Origin: Betaproteobacteria bacterium | GTDB taxonomy: Bacteria; Pseudomonadota; Gammaproteobacteria; Burkholderiales; Casimicrobiaceae | Direction: 5' to 3' | NCBI GenBank assembly: GCA_013298695.1 | Contig: JAAFIS010000007.1 | Location: forward strand, 1 to 64,000 | DNA length: 64,000 bases | Shown: positions 1-43,497 of the stretch, in pieces | Numbering within the stretch: position 1 is the stretch's first letter | How the letters are laid out: each line of letters opens with the position of its first letter | Notes under the pieces: generated by a model | Database searches by the model: none | What the model was told of the DNA's origin: nothing | Seen by the model: only the letters and a program-made list of their open reading frames with translations | Translations under genes and position numbers: made by a program

Positions 1-896
1 CTGATCTGAAAACCACTGCCAACTACACCGCCCGCCACCAGCGCCCCCGAAATCTTGATCGCTGCGCTGCTAGCAATCGGCGCGCTGTAGAGCTCGAGAA
101 CGTTATCGGTGTCTTTGTCGGCACGAAATACCACGCGGGTGCTGTCGGGGCTAATCAAAAAACCGGACACGTTGCCGCCCGTCACCAGCGGCCCCGAAAT
201 TTTGATCGAGGCGCTGCTGGCAATGGGCGTGCTGTAGAGCTCGAAGACGGTGGCAGTGTCTTTGCTGGCAACAAACACCACGCGGGCGCTGTCGGGGCTG
301 ATCTGAAAAGCAAACTGAACGTTGCCACCCGTCACCAGCGCCCCCGAAATCTTGATCGGGGCGCTGCTGGCAATCGGCGTGCTGTAGAGCTCGAAGACGT
401 TATCGGTATCTTTATCGGCCACGAACACCACGCGGGCGCTGTCGGGGCTGATCTGAAAACCACCGGCAACCCTACCGCTCGGCACCAGTGTCCCCGAAAT
501 CTTGATAGGGGCGCTGCTCGCAATGGGCGTGCTGTAAAGCTCGAAGACGTTAACGGCGTCTTTGTCGGCAAGAAACACAACACGGGCGCTGTCGGGGCTG
601 ATCTGGAAACTGTCCACTATGCCACCGGTCACCAGGCCCCCCGAGAGATTGGTGATCACGCCGTCCGATAAGCGAACGCTATACAGTTGGTCCTTGCCGT
701 CGGTATCCTTATCGGCGATAAACACGGCGAATTGACCGTCGGGGCTCACGGAGAATATCGAAGAAACATCGCCGCCCGTCACCAATCCGCCGGAGATTTT
801 GACGGGCTGGGCGGAGAGCGTGGCGCTCAAGCTTACGATGACCACCATCGCTCCAGTAAATCGGGCGATACGGAAAAAAAATTGGTACAGCGACAT
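1..896 (-). CDS. Exported PD40/TolB-like beta-propeller protein, 3' end outside the window
   Basis: Reading leftwards from the ATG at 896-894 the frame stays open to the window edge, so the C-terminus is missing. Residues 1 to about 30 form a signal peptide ending near LSAQ. The rest is a chain of repeats of about 50 residues with the core ISPDSARVVFVADKDTDN followed by ELYS.PIASSAPIKISG; the DNA itself repeats with a period of about 147-150 bp (matching points near 141, 288, 438 and 588). Such PD40 repeats fold into beta-propellers in TolB and related periplasmic or secreted proteins. The N-terminus is nearly the same as that of the 588-residue protein at 1455-3221, so the two are tandem paralogues. 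Function is unknown; binding or a surface role is only inference. Confidence 0.8.
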   Translation of the reverse strand, partial: MSLYQFFFRIARFTGAMVVIVSLSATLSAQPVKISGGLVTGGDVSSIFSVSPDGQFAVFIADKDTDGKDQLYSVRLSDGVITNLSGGLVTGGIVDSFQISPDSARVVFLADKDAVNVFELYSTPIASSAPIKISGTLVPSGRVAGGFQISPDSARVVFVADKDTDNVFELYSTPIASSAPIKISGALVTGGNVQFAFQISPDSARVVFVASKDTATVFELYSTPIASSASIKISGPLVTGGNVSGFLISPDSTRVVFRADKDTDNVLELYSAPIASSAAIKISGALVAGGVVGSGFQI

Positions 897-1190
897 AGTA
901 GTTTATCTCTCGTCAAGCCCGCACAAAACGGGCATTTAGTGTTTTTCTTGACCGTTTAATGGTTTAATGGTTTGGATAGCGCGCATCGACCTGAGTCGAA
1001 TGCTGTAGCGTGTAAACGGAATTTCCAGTCGGTTTACGCCAATTCGGATCGCAATACGGCTAAACATTTCGCTGAAGTGATTCCACACGAGCAATGCCTT
1101 GACCGTAGACGCTTGCGACGTCCACGCGCATCATTTCATTCCCGCCGCGCGAATCGCGGCGTGTTTTGTTGCGGCGAGCTAACCCGAGAA
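897..1190. other. Intergenic stretch with two hairpins, no gene seen
   Basis: No convincing coding frame. It holds a small GC hairpin at about 916-933 (GCCCGCACAAAACGGGC), a short direct repeat of GGTTTAAT near 950-970, and a perfect 7-bp stem (CGCCGCG/CGCGGCG) at about 1143-1161 followed by TGTTTTGTT. The last looks like a plus-strand terminator, but no plus-strand gene precedes it. Confidence 0.4.
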
Positions 1191-1375
1191 TCAGAACACT
1201 AGTCGAAACGCTGAAAGCGCCCTCACAATTTCCGCCTCGATGGTGGTCGAGCTTGTTCGCGTGGCATTCACGCCAACCGCGTTGGCGATGAGCGCGCTGC
1301 CACGCATACCGAGTTGATGGCGAATGAGCAGCAGCGTGAAATCGAGCGCAGCAAGCTTGAAAGGCGAGACGAGTG
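1191..1375 (-). pseudogene. Relic of a dockerin-like C-terminal domain
   Basis: Translated leftwards this stretch gives an open frame of about 60 codons bounded by an in-frame stop upstream (near 1375) and TGA at 1193-1191. It contains TLLLIRHQLGMRGSALIANA, which aligns with ALLLARYQLGIRGSALIENA at the end of the neighbouring 588-residue protein, and the following residues (VGVNAT, then IEAEIVRAL) continue the match. There is no start codon or propeller part attached. I read it as the remaining tail of a third tandem PD40 gene after deletion. Confidence 0.7.
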
Positions 1376-1454
1376 TATTACTTCAGACGATCAATCCGAT
1401 TCATGCACCATGCGATTTGCCGCGAATATCGATGCGTTGCCGTAACGCAAACTT

Positions 1455-3221
1455 TTACAGCGGTATCGCGAAGCCAAGTGCCGCGCGAATGCGCGACTCA
1501 ATGGCAGTTGGGCTGCTGATCGTTGCGTTGGCACCGAGCGCATTTTCAATCAGGGCACTTCCGCGAATTCCAAGCTGATAGCGCGCGAGCAATAGAGCGT
1601 CTGTCAATGACATAACTCGGTCATCGCCATCGAAATCTAGCGCTAGTTCGCGGCCGCCGGTTTGTACGCGGAAGAGTTCAAACACTTCATTGGTTTGCGT
1701 GTCGCCATAAAACAGAACGCGGCTGCTGTCTGCGCTGATTTGAAAACTCAACACATCGCCGCCGGGGACGATCGAGCCAAATAGCGTTTCGCGGCTTCCG
1801 CCCCCGATAGGCACGCTATACAAAACTTCGGAGTCAGTGGTGCTCAGGCCTGCTCTAAAGACAACGCGCGAGCCATCGGGGCTTATCTGGAAATCATAAG
1901 TGACGTAGTCAATGAAAAAAGTGCTTCCGGAGATCGTGGTGCGCGCGCCGCCTTCGATCGGCGTAGTGAAAAGCTCGAAAACATTGTCAGTTTGTAAATC
2001 GCCATGAAAGACTACTTGTTTGCTATCTGGACTAATCAAAAAGCTAGCGTAAGACCTCAGGGTGCCAGCGGTTGGGATCGTGCCTGAGAGCGTGGCGCGC
2101 GGGCCGCCGCTTATCGAGGCGCTGAAAAGCTCGTACACCGTGCTCACGCGCAGATTACCAACGAACACGACGCGAGTGCTGTCGGGGCTGATCGAAAAAT
2201 CAGTCACGTTTCCTGTGCCAACGATAGCGCCCGAGAGCGCCACACGCGGACCGCCCACAATCGGGGCGCTAAACAACTCGCGAACGCTTCCACTGGGGAT
2301 GCCGACGAACACCACGTGCGCGCTGTCGGGACTAATCAAAAAACTGCCGCTGTTGAACAAGGGAGTACCGGAGAGGTTCACGCGAGCGCCGCCGTTGATC
2401 GGTACTCCAAAGAGATCGACCACACCATCCGTTTGCAAATCGCCGGCAAACACCACGCGGGCTCCGTCCGGACTAATCAGAAAACCACCTACGTTGCCGT
2501 TGAGCACCAGCTTGTCCCCGGAGAGCAAGACGTGAGGGCCGCCGCTGCTGATCGAGGCGCTAAAGAGTTCAACTGCTTGATTTGCCTGCAAAACACCACG
2601 AAACACGACGCGGCTGCTGTCGGGGCTGATCAAAAAGGCATTGATACCGCTGTTCGTAGCCGTGCTCGCAGCGATGGTGACGCGCGGGCCGCCACCTATG
2701 GGCGCGCTGAAAATCTCGCTCACCGCGTCGGTCCGCAGATCGCCAAGGAAGACAACGCGAGTGCCATCCGGGCTGATGCGAAAAGTGCCGACATTGCTGC
2801 CGGTAACCACGCTACCGGAGAGTGTCACGCGCACGCCGCCGTCGATTGCGACGCTGAATAGTTCGATCGCAGCAGCGTTTTGCAGGTTTCCTGAGAAAAC
2901 TACGCGAGCACTGTCTGAACTGATTTGAAACGATGCCACATTCGCGCCGAGCGGAAATGCACCGCCGGAGATATTCTGGATAGCGCCTGTTGAAAGGCGA
3001 ACGCTGTATAGCTCATTTCTGCCTGCGACATCTTTATCGGCGATGAAGACCGCGAATCTCCCATCGGGGCTGAGGGCGTATTGAGGTAAGACATCGCCTC
3101 CAGCGACTAAACCGCCAGAAATTTTGACGGGCTGAGCGGAGAGCCCCGCACCCATGCAAATCGTCGCGATAAGAGCACCAATCCAATAGCTGTAACCGCG
3201 TAAAAAACTAATAGTCAACAT
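1455..3221 (-). CDS. Exported PD40 beta-propeller protein with dockerin-like tail, 588 aa
   Basis: Residues 1-30 are a signal peptide (hydrophobic GALIATICMGAGLSAQ). Residues 31 to about 520 are some eleven repeats of about 45 residues with the core ISPDS.RVVF.G.LQT....ELFS..I.GG.R..LSG, typical of PD40/WD40-like propellers. The last 60 residues differ: they hold the acidic loop DFDGDDR followed by ALLLARYQLGIRGSALI, resembling a type-I dockerin or EF-hand half. The same tail occurs in the relic at 1191-1375 and in the YVTN protein at 31715-33118, so it appears to be a module shared by exported propellers in this genome. The protein is a tandem paralogue of the gene at 1-896. Ligand and role are unknown. 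Confidence 0.8.
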   Translation of the reverse strand: MLTISFLRGYSYWIGALIATICMGAGLSAQPVKISGGLVAGGDVLPQYALSPDGRFAVFIADKDVAGRNELYSVRLSTGAIQNISGGAFPLGANVASFQISSDSARVVFSGNLQNAAAIELFSVAIDGGVRVTLSGSVVTGSNVGTFRISPDGTRVVFLGDLRTDAVSEIFSAPIGGGPRVTIAASTATNSGINAFLISPDSSRVVFRGVLQANQAVELFSASISSGGPHVLLSGDKLVLNGNVGGFLISPDGARVVFAGDLQTDGVVDLFGVPINGGARVNLSGTPLFNSGSFLISPDSAHVVFVGIPSGSVRELFSAPIVGGPRVALSGAIVGTGNVTDFSISPDSTRVVFVGNLRVSTVYELFSASISGGPRATLSGTIPTAGTLRSYASFLISPDSKQVVFHGDLQTDNVFELFTTPIEGGARTTISGSTFFIDYVTYDFQISPDGSRVVFRAGLSTTDSEVLYSVPIGGGSRETLFGSIVPGGDVLSFQISADSSRVLFYGDTQTNEVFELFRVQTGGRELALDFDGDDRVMSLTDALLLARYQLGIRGSALIENALGANATISSPTAIESRIRAALGFAIPL

Positions 3222-5871: not shown

Positions 5872-5957
5872 TCGCCCAATTTAATCGGGCGATAGCAAAA
5901 AATAAGTGCTATTGCAACAATATAATAAATTCGGATGATCGCCCGTTTAAATTGGGC
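5872..5957. repeat. Paired-palindrome element, copy 1 (86 bp)
   Basis: Two palindromes, TCGCCCAATTTAATCGGGCG at 5872 and TCGCCCGTTTAAATTGGGC at 5939-5957, flank about 46 bp of AT-rich sequence. The right arm is the inverted copy of the left. It sits between the convergent ends of trmL and the FAH gene and could act as a two-way terminator. The same layout recurs at least six more times in the window. Confidence 0.8.
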
Positions 5958-5975
5958 AAAAACGATAATAGCTGC

Positions 5976-6830: not shown

Positions 6831-6845
6831 ATTTTTCTTTCAGAA

Positions 6846-7100
6846 AGGACGACGGGGCTTCGCCCCCTTAGACGACGAGCCTTCGGCTCTACGACGACGC
6901 ACCTACGGTGCCATGACGGAACTGTAATGCGCGGGGCTGTTCGTCGCAGCATAGAGTTTCAAATTCATTGCGAACGAAGGTGTGCGTTGGTTAAGCTTTG
7001 CGTCATAGCGACCACCGGGAGCGACGTCATAGCGCAAGGCGCGTCGTTCTAGCGCCGCAGGCGCGACGTCCTTCACGATTTAGCGAAAGCTAAATCGTGA
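6846..7100. repeat. Hairpin array 1 (variable stems, constant linker)
   Basis: The gap between the FAH gene and the SDR gene holds two groups of small perfect hairpins. Left group (6846-6917): stems GGGGC-TTC-GCCCC, GAGCC-TTC-GGCTC and GCACC-TAC-GGTGC joined by linkers of the type TAGACGAC. Right group (about 6995-7100), in the opposite orientation: GCGC-AAG-GCGC, GCGCC-GCA-GGCGC joined by GTCGTTCTA, then a terminal hairpin at 7073-7100 with 12-bp perfect arms (TCACGATTTAGC). The right arm of that last hairpin is the end of the SDR gene, including its stop codon; the left arm is an inverted copy of it. Confidence 0.85.
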
Positions 7101-17463: not shown

Positions 17464-18424
17464 GCTCGCCATGTGCAAACGCAGCCATCGCGCCGAGCGT
17501 TAGCCAAGCATCGCCCGCCGCTTGCCCTTTGCTCTGCGCATCCAGTGTTGCGCAACGCTTCAACAATTCTGCAATCCGTCGGGGATCAATCGCGCTATGT
17601 GCGTGCTCCATCGCCTTCTGCCGCTTGCCCCATACTCGTGCATTGCGCAGCGCTTGCGCGAGCGGTGCGCCCTGTCGTCTTGCGAGAAAAATACTGGCGA
17701 GCGCGTGTACGTCTTCGGAAATCATCCACGACAGACGTGGCGCTTGCTCACCCTCTGCGTATAAGCCTTCGAGCACGCGAGCATAGCGCGCGAGATCGCC
17801 TCGCAAGAATGCTTCCGAGAGTTCGTTCGGATCGTAGCGCGCGACATCAGCCACTGCGGCGACTAAATCTTCAATCGCAAGCTTGCCCTTTGGTAGAAAG
17901 AGCGAAAGCTTTTCGATCTCTTGTTTTGCCGCAAGCAAATTGCCTTCGCAGCGCTCACACAAAAAATCGACAACGTCGCGATCTGCGTCAAACGAATATT
18001 TCTTCAGTCGCTTACCGATCCAGTTCGGTAATTGTTCGCGTTCAACAAGCGGTGCAGAGATCACGTCACCTGCACGAGAACAGGCTGCGAACCACGCGCT
18101 TTCTGTTGCGCTGCGATCCAGCTTCGGCAGGTTGAAAATGTAGAGCGTGTCGGGCGCGGGATTAGTGGCAGCACCCGCAAAAAATTCACACGCGTCGGCG
18201 GACGGTTTCGTTGTGTTGATCGTAATCTCAACAATTCGAAGCGTTGAGAAGAGCGAGAAATTGTCACTCGCCTGCGTCACAAGTGACCAATCGAAATGCG
18301 CGCTATCGACGATGTAGTGATCACGTTCGCTGTAACCAGCGACGCGAGCCTGCGCTCGAATTTCGTCAGCCGCTTCCAGCTTGGTGAGAGTTTCCTCACC
18401 GTGGATTAAGTGAAGCAATTTCAT
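17459..18424 (-). CDS. holA: DNA polymerase III delta subunit HolA, 321 aa
   Basis: The clamp-loader subunit that opens the beta clamp. The N-terminal AAA-like part has LLHLIHGEETLTKLEAADEI and the middle SATESAWFAACSRAGDV; KLSLFLPKGKLAIEDLVAAV and the C-terminal FLRGDLARYARVLEGLYAEG are typical of HolA. The neighbours lptE and leuS, in the usual leuS-lptE-holA order on the minus strand, support it. The first six codons form one arm of a 12-bp perfect hairpin (18407-18435) that begins the upstream array, so the ribosome-binding site region is in a strong secondary structure. Confidence 0.93.
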   Translation of the reverse strand: MKLLHLIHGEETLTKLEAADEIRAQARVAGYSERDHYIVDSAHFDWSLVTQASDNFSLFSTLRIVEITINTTKPSADACEFFAGAATNPAPDTLYIFNLPKLDRSATESAWFAACSRAGDVISAPLVEREQLPNWIGKRLKKYSFDADRDVVDFLCERCEGNLLAAKQEIEKLSLFLPKGKLAIEDLVAAVADVARYDPNELSEAFLRGDLARYARVLEGLYAEGEQAPRLSWMISEDVHALASIFLARRQGAPLAQALRNARVWGKRQKAMEHAHSAIDPRRIAELLKRCATLDAQSKGQAAGDAWLTLGAMAAFAHGEL

Positions 18425-18741
18425 TGCTTCACTTAAAGGACGTCGTGCGCTTTGCGCACTAGGACGACGCGAGCTTCGCTCGCTAAGACGTGGCGAAGCG
18501 AAGCTTCGCAGGACGAAATGACGTCGCTCACTGCGTTCACTAGGACGACGCGCTTCGCGCTAAGACGCGAGCATGTCGCAGTCGACACGCTGCTTCGCGC
18601 AGGCTTCCGATTAGCTAACATTTTTTTTGCATACCTTTGCGTCCTAGCGCGAAGCGCGTCGTCCTAGGGCTTTAGCCCGCCGTCCTAGGCCGAAAGGCCG
18701 ACGTCCTGCAGGCACTTAGGCGGGACGCCGGACAGCCTGCA
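18407..18741. repeat. Hairpin array 2, filling the lptE-holA gap
   Basis: The whole gap is built of hairpins. At the holA start, TAAGTGAAGCAA (18407-18418) pairs with its inverse outside the gene (18424-18435). Then follow GTGCGC-TTT-GCGCAC (18445), GCGAGC-TTC-GCTCGC (18469), GCGAAGC-GAA-GCTTCGC (18493), degenerate units, and GCGC-TTC-GCGC (18550), joined by TAGGACGAC or TAAGACG. After a break at about 18600-18640 the orientation flips: GCGC-GAA-GCGC, GGGC-TTTA-GCCC and GGCC-GAAA-GGCC joined by GTCGTCCTA. A last weak pair TGCAGGC/GCCTGCA spans the lptE stop. Confidence 0.88.
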
Positions 18742-19264
18742 ACCGGCGAAGGATTTGAGAGGCGCCATCCAACTGCATATCGCGAATAAGTTGTCGCTCC
18801 TCCGCCTCTTTAGCAAGCGCTTGTGATTCTGAATAGGAGAAGTCGCGACGAATCGTAATTTCTCCCGGCTCGCCCCAGACTCGCTGGCGAGCGTCGACAA
18901 ATTCGTAGCGGATACGATATTCCAACTCGAACTCTCGCGCACGACCGCTGCCGGATAACGAGAGAACGCGCTTGTCGAACGTCACCTGTAGAAAGCGAAT
19001 CGAAAAATCAGCGTCTTCTATTTTCGTTTTGAGTCCAATGCCGTTGCGCATGAGTCCGTCGATGACATCGGGCACGACGGGCGCACCTGCGCCGCCGAGC
19101 GCTTGCGTAACCGGCGCTTGCACATACACGCTGGTGAACGGATAGTTCGCCGCCCCGCGCAGTTGAAACCCGCAGGCGGCGAGCGTTGCTAGCGCTACGC
19201 TAGCCAGGACGACGGTCGCGATGCGCCCTAGGACGACGCGCTGACGCGCTAGGACGTCGGCCAT
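18716..19264 (-). CDS. lptE: LPS-assembly lipoprotein LptE, 182 aa
   Basis: The outer-membrane lipoprotein that plugs LptD in LPS export. The lipobox TLAACGFQLRG gives the acylated Cys at about residue 31. YPFTSVYVQAP, SIRFLQVTFDKRVLSLSGSG and FELEYRIRYEFVD are LptE-like. I start at the ATG at 19264; an in-frame ATG at 19294 is possible. The start codon is inside the hairpin GGCCA-T-TGGCC, and residues 1-26 (signal peptide) are read through three to four units of a hairpin array with in-frame linkers GTCCTAG and GTCGTCCTAG. The ancestral start may have been lost and replaced by repeat sequence. Position between leuS and holA is the usual one. Confidence 0.85.
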   Translation of the reverse strand: MADVLARQRVVLGRIATVVLASVALATLAACGFQLRGAANYPFTSVYVQAPVTQALGGAGAPVVPDVIDGLMRNGIGLKTKIEDADFSIRFLQVTFDKRVLSLSGSGRAREFELEYRIRYEFVDARQRVWGEPGEITIRRDFSYSESQALAKEAEERQLIRDMQLDGASQILRRLQAVRRPA

Positions 19265-19275
19265 TGGCCTACGAC
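19188..19275. repeat. Hairpin array 3, coding for the LptE signal peptide
   Basis: From left to right: GCTAGCG-CTA-CGCTAGC (19188-19204), linker CAGGACGAC, a GTCGCGATGCGC unit, linker CTAGGACGAC, a CGCTGACGCG unit, linker CTAGGACGTC, GGCCA-T-TGGCC (19259-19269), then TACGACG. All but the last few bases are inside the lptE reading frame and specify MADVLARQRVVLGRIATVVL and the start of the hydrophobic core. Confidence 0.8.
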
Positions 19276-19361
19276 GCGAGCAGATTTCAATCATGGTGTT
19301 GCTTTGCATTGCGGTTGAATTTCGAAAAATCTCAATTTGAAGACTGTAGATTGTGAAGCTT

Positions 19362-19451
19362 TGCGTCATAGGCACGCAGTGCCGTCGTCCTAGCAAGCGA
19401 AGCGTGCGTCGTCCTAGGCCGCAGGCCGACGTCCTTGTCGTTACACGACAA
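19362..19451. repeat. Hairpin array 4, upstream of lptE and overlapping the leuS end
   Basis: After CTTTGCGTCATA come GGCAC-GCA-GTGCC, linker GTCGTCCTAG, CAAGCGAAGCGTGC (one mismatch), linker GTCGTCCTAG, GGCC-GCA-GGCC, linker GACGTCC, and a terminal hairpin TTGTCGT-TAC-ACGACAA at 19435-19451. The right arm of the last hairpin is the end of leuS with its stop codon. Confidence 0.85.
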
Positions 19452-22482: not shown

Positions 22483-24657
22483 CTTGCTGCGTTGCTTGCA
22501 CTTAATTCATTCGTCGCGAACGCCGCATCGATCAAAACGCCACACGCTGAAGTTGAACTCGTCGCCGCTGAAAACGCGCTGGTTCCAGGCCAATCCTCGC
22601 GTATTGCGCTCTCCATCAAACACGCGCCGCACTGGCACACCTACTGGAAAAATCCCGGCGATTCTGGCTACCCGACGAAGGTGACATGGGATTTGCCGCC
22701 GGGGTATTCGGTGAGCGCGTTTGACTGGCCAGTGCCCAAGCGCTTGGCGACCGGGCCGATTGTGAATTTCGGCTATGAAGGCGAAGTGCTTCTTCCGGCG
22801 TCGATATCCATCCCGCGTGACGCCGCAGTTGGCGCTAGCGTTACGATCAAAGGCAAAGCTGAGTGGCTGGTGTGCAAAGACGTGTGCATTCCAGAAGATG
22901 GTGAAGTGTCGCTATCGCTGCCGATTGCTGGGACTGCGCGCATGGTGAACTTAGACGCGTGGAATAAAGCCGAAGCGTTAGTTCCAAAGCCGCTCGCGGG
23001 CTGGAGCGGCGAGGCACGCATTCACGGCCGCGATCTGTGGATCGAATTGAAACCGTCGACCGAAGCCGCGAAACTCACGCGATTCGACGTGTTTCCGGAA
23101 GCCGAACAGATCACTGAACCGGCGGTTCAAAAGGTTTATTCGACTTCGACTGGTTACGGCGCGATGCTCAAATTGGTGGACGGCGCAAAAGTGCCCAATC
23201 AGTTCCAGCTTGTAGTGTCTTCGCCCAATAATATTGGGCGTGAGCAGAATTTTGGTTATTTATCGGTAACTACAAAAAACATTGCTGTTGCCCAAGATAT
23301 TGGCGGCTACACATTACTGGCTGATTCCGCGCCGAGCGCGAGCCTAACGCCAGCAACCGCGTCGGTGGGCTCGCCCTCAGCGCCCGTCGCCGCAGCGAAC
23401 TCGACCGACGCGATGTCATTTTGGGCGGCGATTACCTTCGCCTTCGTCGGCGGCATGATTTTGAATCTCATGCCCTGCGTGTTTCCGGTGTTGTCGTTGA
23501 AGATTTTGTCGTTTGCGCAACATGCGGGCGCGAAAAACGGAAGTAGCGCAAATGCGGTCGAGCGTCGCGGCGCGATGCGGGTTCACGGTCTTTTCTACGC
23601 CGTTGGCGTGATCGTTTCTTTCCTCGCACTCGCAGGCGCGTTGCTCGCCTTGAAGAGCGCGGGCAGCGCCGTCGGTTGGGGTTTCCAATTGCAAAACCCG
23701 AGCGTGGTATGGGTGCTCGCCGTCGTGTTTTTCTTGATTGGTTTGAACTTGATGGGTGCGTTTGAAGTGGGCACCTTGGCACCTTCATCGCTACTCAATT
23801 TCACCGCGAAAAATCCCGGCATTGATGCGTTTTTCTCAGGCGTGCTCGCGGTGATCGCAGCGAGTCCGTGCACTGCGCCGTTCATGGGTGCAGCGCTTGG
23901 TTTTGCGCTAACGCAGAGTACGCTGGCGGCGCTGGCCGTGTTCGCAGCGCTCGGTGTCGGCATGGCGATTCCCTACGTGTTGCTCGCGTGGTTTCCGAAG
24001 TGGCTAGATCGTTTGCCGCGACCGGGGCCGTGGATGGTGACCTTCAAACAAGTGCTCGCGTTTCCGATGTTCCTCACCGTCGTGTGGCTCATTTGGGTGA
24101 TCGCGCAACAGGCAACGATTGACGGCGCAGCGATTGCGCTCGTGGGCTTGGTAGGCATCGCATTTGGTGCCTGGTTATTGGGTTCGCTTCGCACGCGAGC
24201 GCGTGTCGCGGGGGCGATTGCCGGCGCGATTGCGATTGCGTTTGCGTGGCCGACGACTGCGATGGTGGAGCAAGCAAACTCAGCGAACACTTCGCAAAGC
24301 GCAACATCATCGAACGGCGCACAATGGAAGCCGTGGAACCCGGATGAAATTGCGAAGTTAAACGCCGAAGGCAAACCGGTATTCGTTGATTTCACTGCGG
24401 CGTGGTGTGTGAGTTGTCAGGCAAATAAACGCCTCGTGCTCACTCGCGACGAAGTGGTGAAAACCTTCGCACAAAAAAACGTCGTGCTGATGCGCGCCGA
24501 TTGGACCAACCGTGACGAGCGCATCACCAAAGCGCTTACTGCAATGAATCGCTCGGGTGTGCCGGTCTATGCGCTGCATGCGCCGGGCAAGCCTGTTCAG
24601 TTACTGCCAGAATTATTAACGACCGGAATTGTCGTTGGCGCTATAGCAAAGCTATAG
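22411..24657 (+). CDS. dsbD: Thiol:disulfide interchange protein DsbD, 748 aa
   Basis: Carries electrons from cytoplasmic thioredoxin to the periplasm. The N-terminal exported domain has the Cys pair in AEWLVCKDVCIPED; the eight-helix membrane core has Cys in LNLMPCVFPVLSLKI and AASPCTAPFMG; the C-terminal thioredoxin domain has AAWCVSCQANK. Residues 13-23 (QRWIPTLVGTT) are encoded by a REP arm, so the start and signal-peptide N-region come from repeat DNA. Residues about 271-298 (from SPNNIGREQNF to AQDIGG) are encoded by an in-frame copy of the 86-bp paired palindrome. The stop codon is in a GCTATAGC hairpin that opens array 5. Confidence 0.9.
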   Translation: MPRPFFALRFLSAQRWIPTLVGTTLAALLALNSFVANAASIKTPHAEVELVAAENALVPGQSSRIALSIKHAPHWHTYWKNPGDSGYPTKVTWDLPPGYSVSAFDWPVPKRLATGPIVNFGYEGEVLLPASISIPRDAAVGASVTIKGKAEWLVCKDVCIPEDGEVSLSLPIAGTARMVNLDAWNKAEALVPKPLAGWSGEARIHGRDLWIELKPSTEAAKLTRFDVFPEAEQITEPAVQKVYSTSTGYGAMLKLVDGAKVPNQFQLVVSSPNNIGREQNFGYLSVTTKNIAVAQDIGGYTLLADSAPSASLTPATASVGSPSAPVAAANSTDAMSFWAAITFAFVGGMILNLMPCVFPVLSLKILSFAQHAGAKNGSSANAVERRGAMRVHGLFYAVGVIVSFLALAGALLALKSAGSAVGWGFQLQNPSVVWVLAVVFFLIGLNLMGAFEVGTLAPSSLLNFTAKNPGIDAFFSGVLAVIAASPCTAPFMGAALGFALTQSTLAALAVFAALGVGMAIPYVLLAWFPKWLDRLPRPGPWMVTFKQVLAFPMFLTVVWLIWVIAQQATIDGAAIALVGLVGIAFGAWLLGSLRTRARVAGAIAGAIAIAFAWPTTAMVEQANSANTSQSATSSNGAQWKPWNPDEIAKLNAEGKPVFVDFTAAWCVSCQANKRLVLTRDEVVKTFAQKNVVLMRADWTNRDERITKALTAMNRSGVPVYALHAPGKPVQLLPELLTTGIVVGAIAKL
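23221..23306. repeat. Paired-palindrome element inside dsbD (86 bp)
   Basis: TCGCCCAATAATATTGGGCG at 23221-23240 and TTGCCCAAGATATTGGCGG at 23288-23306 flank 47 bp. The length and layout are those of the intergenic copies (for instance 5872-5957). It has no in-frame stop and is translated as part of the periplasmic domain of DsbD. Confidence 0.8.
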
Positions 24658-24737
24658 CAGGACGACGGGCTTTCGCCCTAAGACGACGCGCTTCGCGCTA
24701 TGACGACGCCTGCCCCGGACTTGATCCGGGGACGCAA
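24640..24737. repeat. Hairpin array 5, after dsbD
   Basis: Begins with GCTATAGC-AAA-GCTATAGC (24640-24658), which includes the dsbD stop codon. Then linker AGGACGAC, GGGC-TTTC-GCCC, linker TAAGACGAC, GCGC-TTC-GCGC, linker TATGACGAC, and a longer stem CCCCGGACTTGATCCGGGG, followed by GACGCAAAGCTTTGC, the inverse of the AAGCTTTGCGTC boundary seen in arrays 1 and 4. Only the left-facing orientation is present here. Confidence 0.85.
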
Positions 24738-24793
24738 AGCTTTGCTGATATTGATTTGCTTTTCGATTGTTTGTTTTTTTGAAGGAAATTGAA

Positions 24794-25419: not shown

Positions 25420-25508
25420 TCGCCCAATTTAACTGGGCGAACACGCGATTAGAAGATCAAAGCGAAAAATTAAGAAAAACGATTCATCGCCCGCATCAAG
25501 CGGGCGAT
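25420..25508. repeat. Paired-palindrome element, copy between convergent genes
   Basis: TCGCCCAATTTAACTGGGCG at 25420 and ATCGCCCGCATCAAGCGGGC at 25486 (ending 25508), about 45 bp apart. It lies between the redoxin gene and the nitronate monooxygenase gene, which converge. Confidence 0.8.
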
Positions 25509-43356: not shown

Positions 43357-43409
43357 CGCACGTGCATCGTCGATTTATCTGAGAATACGCTATTAGATTT
43401 ACACCTGTT

Positions 43410-43497
43410 CGTCCAATTAAAATGGGCGACAAGCAGAAAAAAAAGATATTTCGAGAAGTATCACAATGTCGATATTCGCCCACTTAACGTGAGCGAA
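43410..43497. repeat. Paired-palindrome element
   Basis: CGTCCAATTAAAATGGGCGA at 43410-43429 and TCGCCCACTTAACGTGAGCG near 43476-43495. It is between convergent genes (the PHA-system protein and soxR). Confidence 0.75.

Follow-up and report, generated by a model that had tools for sequence, protein, structure and literature searches.

In some uncultured betaproteobacteria, REP-like hairpin arrays between genes often carry a mirror image of the adjoining gene end at their borders; this inverted copy fills the stretch that separates the linker from the gene and directly abuts the linker. Most likely, these mirror copies are written and kept by template switching; we put the probability that template switching at the array boundary both writes and rewrites the outer arm at roughly 0.7. 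The arms lie flush with the array, are absent from the array-poor relative G002 at the 21 termini compared, and pair in a species-specific manner, and the coding arm is not slowed in its divergence. These observations bear on where REP-like repeats get their palindromes.

Array architecture and edge hairpins of the window

The window, that is, the whole stretch of 64,000 nucleotides analyzed here (G000:C20:1-64000), belongs to a 4.08-Mb draft genome of 22 contigs (G000). Its LeuS is 78% identical to those of two MAG records (Betaproteobacteria and Pseudomonadota) and 60 to 65% identical to those of the other 78 loci kept, which are largely from Burkholderiales. The arrays are rows of unlike hairpins between genes, joined by a (CT)AGGACGWCG linker, and each unit, from the outside toward the center, consists of a small hairpin followed by a linker. 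Interior linkers mostly read CTA(G/A/T)GACGWCG; those at the outer border mostly read NAGGACGWCG, where N is C, A, or G in most cases. Linkers are in the + sense in left halves and in the - sense in right halves, in the fashion of BIMEs (+ + + - - -), and some arrays are one-sided.

Interior stems are varied, with 153 distinct bodies among 210 interior units. Their scores are mostly 2 to 6, on a lenient scale by which 204 of the 210 units have no internal mismatch; the bodies start with CG, and loops are mostly of 3. In uncounted examples, a unit that recurs, CTCCCG..GGTCGC, and the motif GACGCAAAGC often take the innermost position; the interior parsing caught just two copies of this unit, as the innermost linker failed to match the parse. 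A search of the whole window against Rfam at the gathering threshold gave no matches.

A linker-pair pattern matched 77 + 72 times in G000, compared with 6 + 4 times for its reversed control. According to this count, 6 of the 17 genomes of the genus are array rich (G000, G009, G014, G005, G010, and G012); the remaining 11, with G002 among the array-poor, have counts near or below their own controls.

Table 1. Coordinates of the arrays and edge hairpins in the window
Feature	Start	End	Strand	Description
Array 1	6845	7073	.	FAA-hydrolase gene start to SDR gene end; linkers + + + - -
SDR-stop edge hairpin	7073	7100	-	Outer arm 7073-7084, loop 7085-7088, gene arm 7089-7100; 12 bp
holA-start edge hairpin	18406	18436	-	Gene arm 18406-18419, loop 18420-18422, outer arm 18423-18436; 14 bp
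Array 2	18436	18708	.	Between holA and lptE; linkers + + + + - - -
lptE-end edge hairpin, weak	18707	18741	-	7-bp arms 18707-18713 and 18735-18741; loop 21
lptE start-region edge hairpin	19188	19204	-	7-bp arms 19188-19194 and 19198-19204, both coding, inside lptE
Array 3	19205	19436	.	Between lptE and leuS; linkers + + + - - -
leuS-stop edge hairpin	19435	19451	-	Outer arm 19435-19441, loop 19442-19444, gene arm 19445-19451; 7 bp
dsbD-end edge hairpin	24640	24658	+	Arms 24640-24647 and 24651-24658; 8 bp
Array 4	24658	24740	+	Downstream of dsbD; + linkers only; ends in GACGCAAAGC at 24731-24740

The four edge hairpins described in an earlier, sequence-only reading (SDR, holA, leuS, and dsbD) are all present, as confirmed by rechecking their coordinates, with the holA arms being 14 bp (18406-18436) rather than 12 bp long. 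In that reading, one arm of each hairpin was coding sequence that includes the stop or start codon, and the other lay just outside the gene. This is true of the SDR stop codon (7090-7092), which lies in the gene arm; the holA start codon (18422-18424), however, falls within the loop and outer arm. At dsbD, the picture of an arm outside the gene fails, as the stop (24655-24657) is part of the outer arm and nearly all of both arms is coding. Compared with shuffles, single-stranded DNA folding gave z values of -4.54 (SDR), -6.95 (holA), -3.00 (leuS), and -2.62 (dsbD). Arms of 7 to 8 bp are weak taken singly, whereas those of 12 to 14 bp are not. The FAA-hydrolase edge at 6845, one of seven outer edges that the window contains, has no mirror arm.

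The N terminus of lptE is a read-through of the right-hand part of array 3 (window 19192-19291, minus strand). Hairpin and linker sequence encodes the hydrophobic stretch of the LptE signal peptide (..RVVLGRIATVVLASVALATLAAC in G000), and a similar array-encoded signal-peptide stretch is found in L084 of G005 and L081 of G009. The HolA start of G000, G009, and G002 lies about 20 residues later than that of most genus relatives (window 18406-18424), and this late start, shared by G008 and G016, falls at the ..LIHGEE motif. A separate family of small palindromes (TCGCCCAATTTAATCGGGCGA) is found at 848-868, 5872-5892, 5939-5959, 23221-23241, 25420-25440, 25487-25507, and 43409-43429, twice paired at a distance of 67 nt. 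Positions 1-3221 of the window hold diverged tandem repeats of about 147 to 150 nt that bear no relation to the arrays.

Frequency of mirrored gene ends at array edges

A first set comprised 118 outer edges from at least 80 arrays of G000, G009, and G005, among the matches listed. The arm score was the longest perfect inverted repeat whose outer arm ends at most 4 bases from GGACG, and the expectation was drawn from swapped pairs of edges (13806 pairs in this set). At 34 of the 118 edges, the perfect arm is 8 bp or longer, compared with 0.62 expected, and at 23 it is 10 bp or longer, compared with 0.03 expected (both among the matches listed). The proposal that array edges mirror the adjoining gene ends thus withstands a statistical comparison with swapped edges.

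A five-genome set, scored by one rule throughout, comprised 169 edges from 120 arrays, those of G000, G009, and G005 being among the matches listed; 51 edges from 40 arrays in G010 and G014 served as a hold-out. Among the matches listed, arms of at least 8 bp were found at 17 of 57 edges in G000 (0.20 expected), 17 of 38 in G009 (0.19 expected), and 3 of 23 in G005 (0.41 expected). The corresponding values were 0 of 18 in G010 (0.06 expected) and 2 of 33 in G014 (0.03 expected), or 2 of 51 for the hold-out together (0.08 expected). Edges without such an arm are the majority even in G000 (40/57) and G009 (21/38), again among the matches listed. Mirroring is thus frequent in G000 and G009 only, and arrays of G005, G010, and G014 mostly lack it. 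The sequence-only reading would be refuted if most arrays elsewhere showed no match to neighboring gene ends; by this standard, the rule fails for most arrays of G010 and G014.

Given the two arms in the hold-out, the writer of these copies may be frequent only in G000 and G009, or it may be limited to one form of border. Of the 51 hold-out edges, 36 do not read GGACGWCG, being largely tandem linkers such as GGACGAGATGACG; a total of 39 edges overlap a gene end or lie at most 20 nt from one. In the five-genome set, arms scoring at least 7 occur at 47 of 112 GGACGWCG edges versus 5 of 57 others, a difference that is confounded by genome (matches listed). Within G000 and G009, the counts are 43 of 81 versus 2 of 14 among the matches listed.

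The 39 arms of at least 8 bp in the five-genome set (matches listed) are nearly all flush, with an offset of 0 or 1 from the linker in 36. Their loops, mostly 3 to 4 nt long, measure 1 to 5 nt in 28 cases and 7 to 40 nt in 11. Overlap with coding sequence is seen for 19 of the 21 arms that face a stop and for 11 of the 16 that face a start, two arms having no gene assigned. At edges of G000, G009, and G005 located 5 to 20 nt from a stop, 22 of 35 score at least 7, and at the same distance from a start, 7 of 26 do so (matches listed). Stop codons at the edges of these three genomes give no clear signal.

Origin of the outer arm in the gene end

Orthologous gene ends were compared between genomes that differ in arrays. 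We followed holA and 20 further termini, selected because G000 or G009 has a hairpin there, into G002, G010, G012, and other genomes, so that terminus scores of G000 and G009 are biased by the choice of genes and those of the other genomes are unbiased. IscU and one misread frame were excluded from the chimeric query and from the orthologous-terminus scoring. The holA, lptE, leuS, and dsbD genes are syntenic in the genus. In G002, the gap between lptE and holA is 13 nt long, with neither array nor mirror. Across the 21 termini in G002, holA included, the best score is 8 even when the best of 23 end positions is taken, whereas edges in array genomes reach 21. Thus, G002 keeps the protein ends at the termini followed, yet it has no comparable arm. 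No linker lies within 60 nt of 20 of 22 G002 termini; an AAGACG is found 51 nt away at one, and the AGGACG near the holA terminus is the coding end of lptE.

Linkers can also lie flush with a gene in the absence of a mirror, as at PurA (G005 and G010), GatA and IscS (G012), and several termini in G010 and G014. The leuS edge of G005 has its linker on the stop codon with no mirror, and the dsbD array of G014 has no mirror. These mirror-free flush linkers at orthologous termini suggest that the linker came first and the mirror later. In the HolA tree, G002 groups with G009 (83/83), inside the G000 clade; hence, G002 may have undergone a joint loss of arrays and mirrors. The label "array-rich" takes four changes on this tree, and at least three. 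Overall, the sequence comparison supports a derivation of the outer arm from the gene end. The sequence-only reading had the outer arm copied from the coding arm, and the armless G002 termini, together with orthologous edges that each mirror their own gene, bear this out.

Arms that change together between species

The last codons of PrfA differ in G000, G009, G010, and G012, and every outer arm mirrors its own gene over 12 to 13 bp, perfectly in G010 and G012 and with one mismatch in G000 and G009; the arm is 5 bp long in G005, and G002 has nothing comparable. At the SDR end, G000, G009, and G012 each carry their own mirror in differing letters, and G002 carries none. The holA start of G009 has an arm that differs from that of G000 and mirrors its own holA, with 8 of 8 differences mirrored, amino acid changes included; in G002, this start has no mirror arm. 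The PurA arms of G000 and G009 each mirror their own gene, and G014 has an 8-bp arm there. The MutS start has different arms in two species, each mirroring its own gene. The lptE start-region arms are 12 bp long in G014, 12 bp with one mismatch in G009, and 7 bp in G000. In IscS of G000, the copied segment lies 32 nt upstream; in G010, the copy was taken at the stop.

Sixteen orthologous pairs, six of which are PrfA and not independent and one of which has no shared positions, provided 148 shared stem positions with 57 coding-side differences. Of these differences, 51 are mirrored (27 transitions and 24 transversions) and 6 are broken; for G000 and G009 alone, 28 of 30 are mirrored. Because stems were admitted only at a score of at least 7 in both species, and were thus picked for pairing, part of this agreement is by construction. 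The independent evidence is the excess of arms over swapped edges.

Interior units provide uncounted examples of the same kind. In orthologous arrays, the interior ABC units differ in both arms (GAAGTGCGC/GCGCACTTC versus GAAGCGCGC/GCGCGCTTC), and the first unit of the SDR array is GCGCC/GGCGC in one genome and GCACC/GGTGC in the orthologue, with both arms altered.

Copying and its alternatives

Paired changes in a stem are usually taken as proof of selection on RNA structure. At array edges, the direction of copying is readable since one arm is held by a protein. In 11 pairs, four of them PrfA, third codon positions differ at 32 of 52 sites in coding arms and at 123 of 267 sites upstream; without PrfA, the counts are 15 of 28 and 95 of 175, respectively. 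Arm third positions therefore vary no more slowly than those upstream, and pairing does not slow the coding arm. The mismatches in 48 stems, read in the transcript sense, are 4 G-U, 5 A-C, and 3 other, with no excess of G-U. Taken together, these two results favor copying over selection for an RNA fold, albeit in small samples.

A rather improbable alternative is that the hairpin at the gene end is itself selected, for mRNA 3' protection or for translational or termination control, with single mutations of the outer arm being selected to pair. Mirrors occur more often at stops than at starts, as selection on transcripts would give, and REPs within 15 nt of a stop are described as affecting translation in Escherichia coli (PMC12306157). 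Yet transversions are mirrored nearly as often as transitions (24 versus 27 of 51), which, like the G-U and third-position results, argues against this scenario on small counts; moreover, mirror-free orthologous arrays persist, and the holA hairpin encloses a start codon. Hairpins can likewise enclose GGA(G) in the loop (GatB and IscU); these cases, along with the two sources of the IscS copy, favor a mutational writer. Such a Shine-Dalgarno-like GGA(G) is seen in the loop of edge hairpins at some gene starts, at the right edges of L119:3006 and L125 (G000) and in L140 (G009) and L184 (G010).

Alternatively, a linker-specific nuclease of the HUH/Y1 type could nick at the CT of CGTCC|T|, and the free 3' end could be extended by self-primed or wrong-strand copying and then rejoined. 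E. coli TnpA-REP is described as cutting at a CT beside a palindrome (PMC8266576), and in our arrays the junctions are flush at the CGTCC|T| point. Y1_Tnp genes are present in 15 of the 17 genomes of the genus, but their counts do not track array number in these 17 genomes, and the linker is found at 2 of 20 Y1_Tnp loci examined and not at the G000 copy. We regard this scenario as quite improbable, and on the same distribution we rejected Y1_Tnp as a mobilizer of the arrays.

Mobile elements that prefer palindromes exist. The hairpins might be older, as terminators or targets, with the arrays having moved in beside them, but we found nothing in favor of this and regard it as very improbable: the 21 termini of array-poor G002 have no comparable hairpin, arms at one site differ between species, and linkers flush with genes occur without a hairpin. 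A fold-back chimera of assembly or amplification is scarcely credible even though G000 and G009 are drafts (22 and about 350 contigs), given arms at linkers, at orthologous sites, in separate assemblies, and with species-specific letters.

A template-switching model for array edges

Under the template-switching model, DNA synthesis would stall or restart at the outer boundary of the array (...|AGGACG) and copy about 8 to 20 nt from the end of the gene in the wrong sense, using as a template either its own folded-back strand or a displaced strand. Synthesis would then rejoin the normal template at the linker, leaving a gene arm, a short loop, a mirrored outer arm, and the linker. As the gene end drifts, repeated events would re-copy the outer arm, in the manner of quasipalindrome correction. 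We propose that this repeated re-copying lets the two arms covary with no need for selection on the fold. We infer DNA synthesis as the copier, and also its recurrence, from these patterns. The sequence-only reading had offered fold-back synthesis or template switching as the process; for template switching, the signs are indirect (24 of 51 mirrored differences being transversions, no G-U excess, and a coding arm that is not slowed), and growth of the arrays by fold-back is conjecture. The same process may also keep interior stems matched yet unlike one another.

A broader form of the model, which we consider unlikely, would make the AGGACG linker a site at which palindromes are written. A nick or fork block directed by the linker would turn the outside neighbor into a hairpin and re-copy it; gene ends would be captured, interior stems would be former neighbors, and the outer arm would at times be copied back into the gene. 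At the GatA end of G009 (L140), both arms are coding and the TAG of the linker serves as the stop codon. As the residue preceding HPAL, G009 has A, G000 and G002 have K, and G010 and G012 have R. This A beside HPAL, in one case, makes copying into the gene possible.

Pairing that is maintained without clear signs of selection calls for caution in covariation-based RNA discovery, and array edges offer a natural system for testing how template switching acts in bacterial evolution.

Comparison with known systems

We found no account of palindromes copied from gene ends at repeat arrays in the open-license PMC literature, surveyed mostly at the title level. Intrinsic terminators consist of a G+C-rich hairpin followed by a run of T; here, by the definition of an edge, AGGACG follows the outer arm, and edge hairpins also occur at gene starts. 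Coding palindromes of Nematomorpha mitochondria resemble the edge hairpins in being inverted repeats with coding arms, but they are described as lying inside animal mitochondrial genes, without linker arrays (PMC6649704).

The arrays are closer to REPs and BIMEs with a GTAG or CGTC tag, described as intergenic palindromes with a fixed tag, in head-to-head pairs, near gene ends (PMC3733652, PMC8266576). As in the CGTC-tagged REPs of Di Nocera 2013, which have the motif at one palindrome end, AGGACG/CGTCCT adjoins the units, and many arrays contain units in inverse orientation, as BIMEs do, others being one-sided. In contrast to REPs and BIMEs, stems here are not conserved, outer stems copy genes, and the tag is (CT)AGGACG. 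GTAG REPs associated with a RAYT (REPtrons) have GTAG before the palindrome; our linkers mostly read CTA(G/A/T)GACG in the interior and C/A/G-AG-GACG at the outer border. Nor do the arrays directly flank a Y1 transposase gene in the 20 Y1_Tnp loci examined, lying about 1 kb away in two of them (L212 and L219). In several Y1_Tnp loci (L204, L212, and L219), TAGGAGC motifs occur as inverted pairs, an arrangement expected of GTAG-type REPs.

Template switching is described as making E. coli palindromes more perfect (PMC7202029) and has been inferred for RNA genes and stems (PMC8794818). In the accounts given by these two sources, template switching and quasipalindrome correction create perfect inverted repeats with short loops in one step and keep them paired, transversions included. 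The edge hairpins resemble them in two respects: near-perfect inverted repeats are missing at 21 termini of a relative, G002, which may have lost its arrays, and paired changes include transversions (51 of 57 differences mirrored, 24 of them transversions, in stems picked for pairing). What differs is the setting, since here the events would occur at the border of a repeat array, with the neighboring gene end as the template, at many loci per genome.
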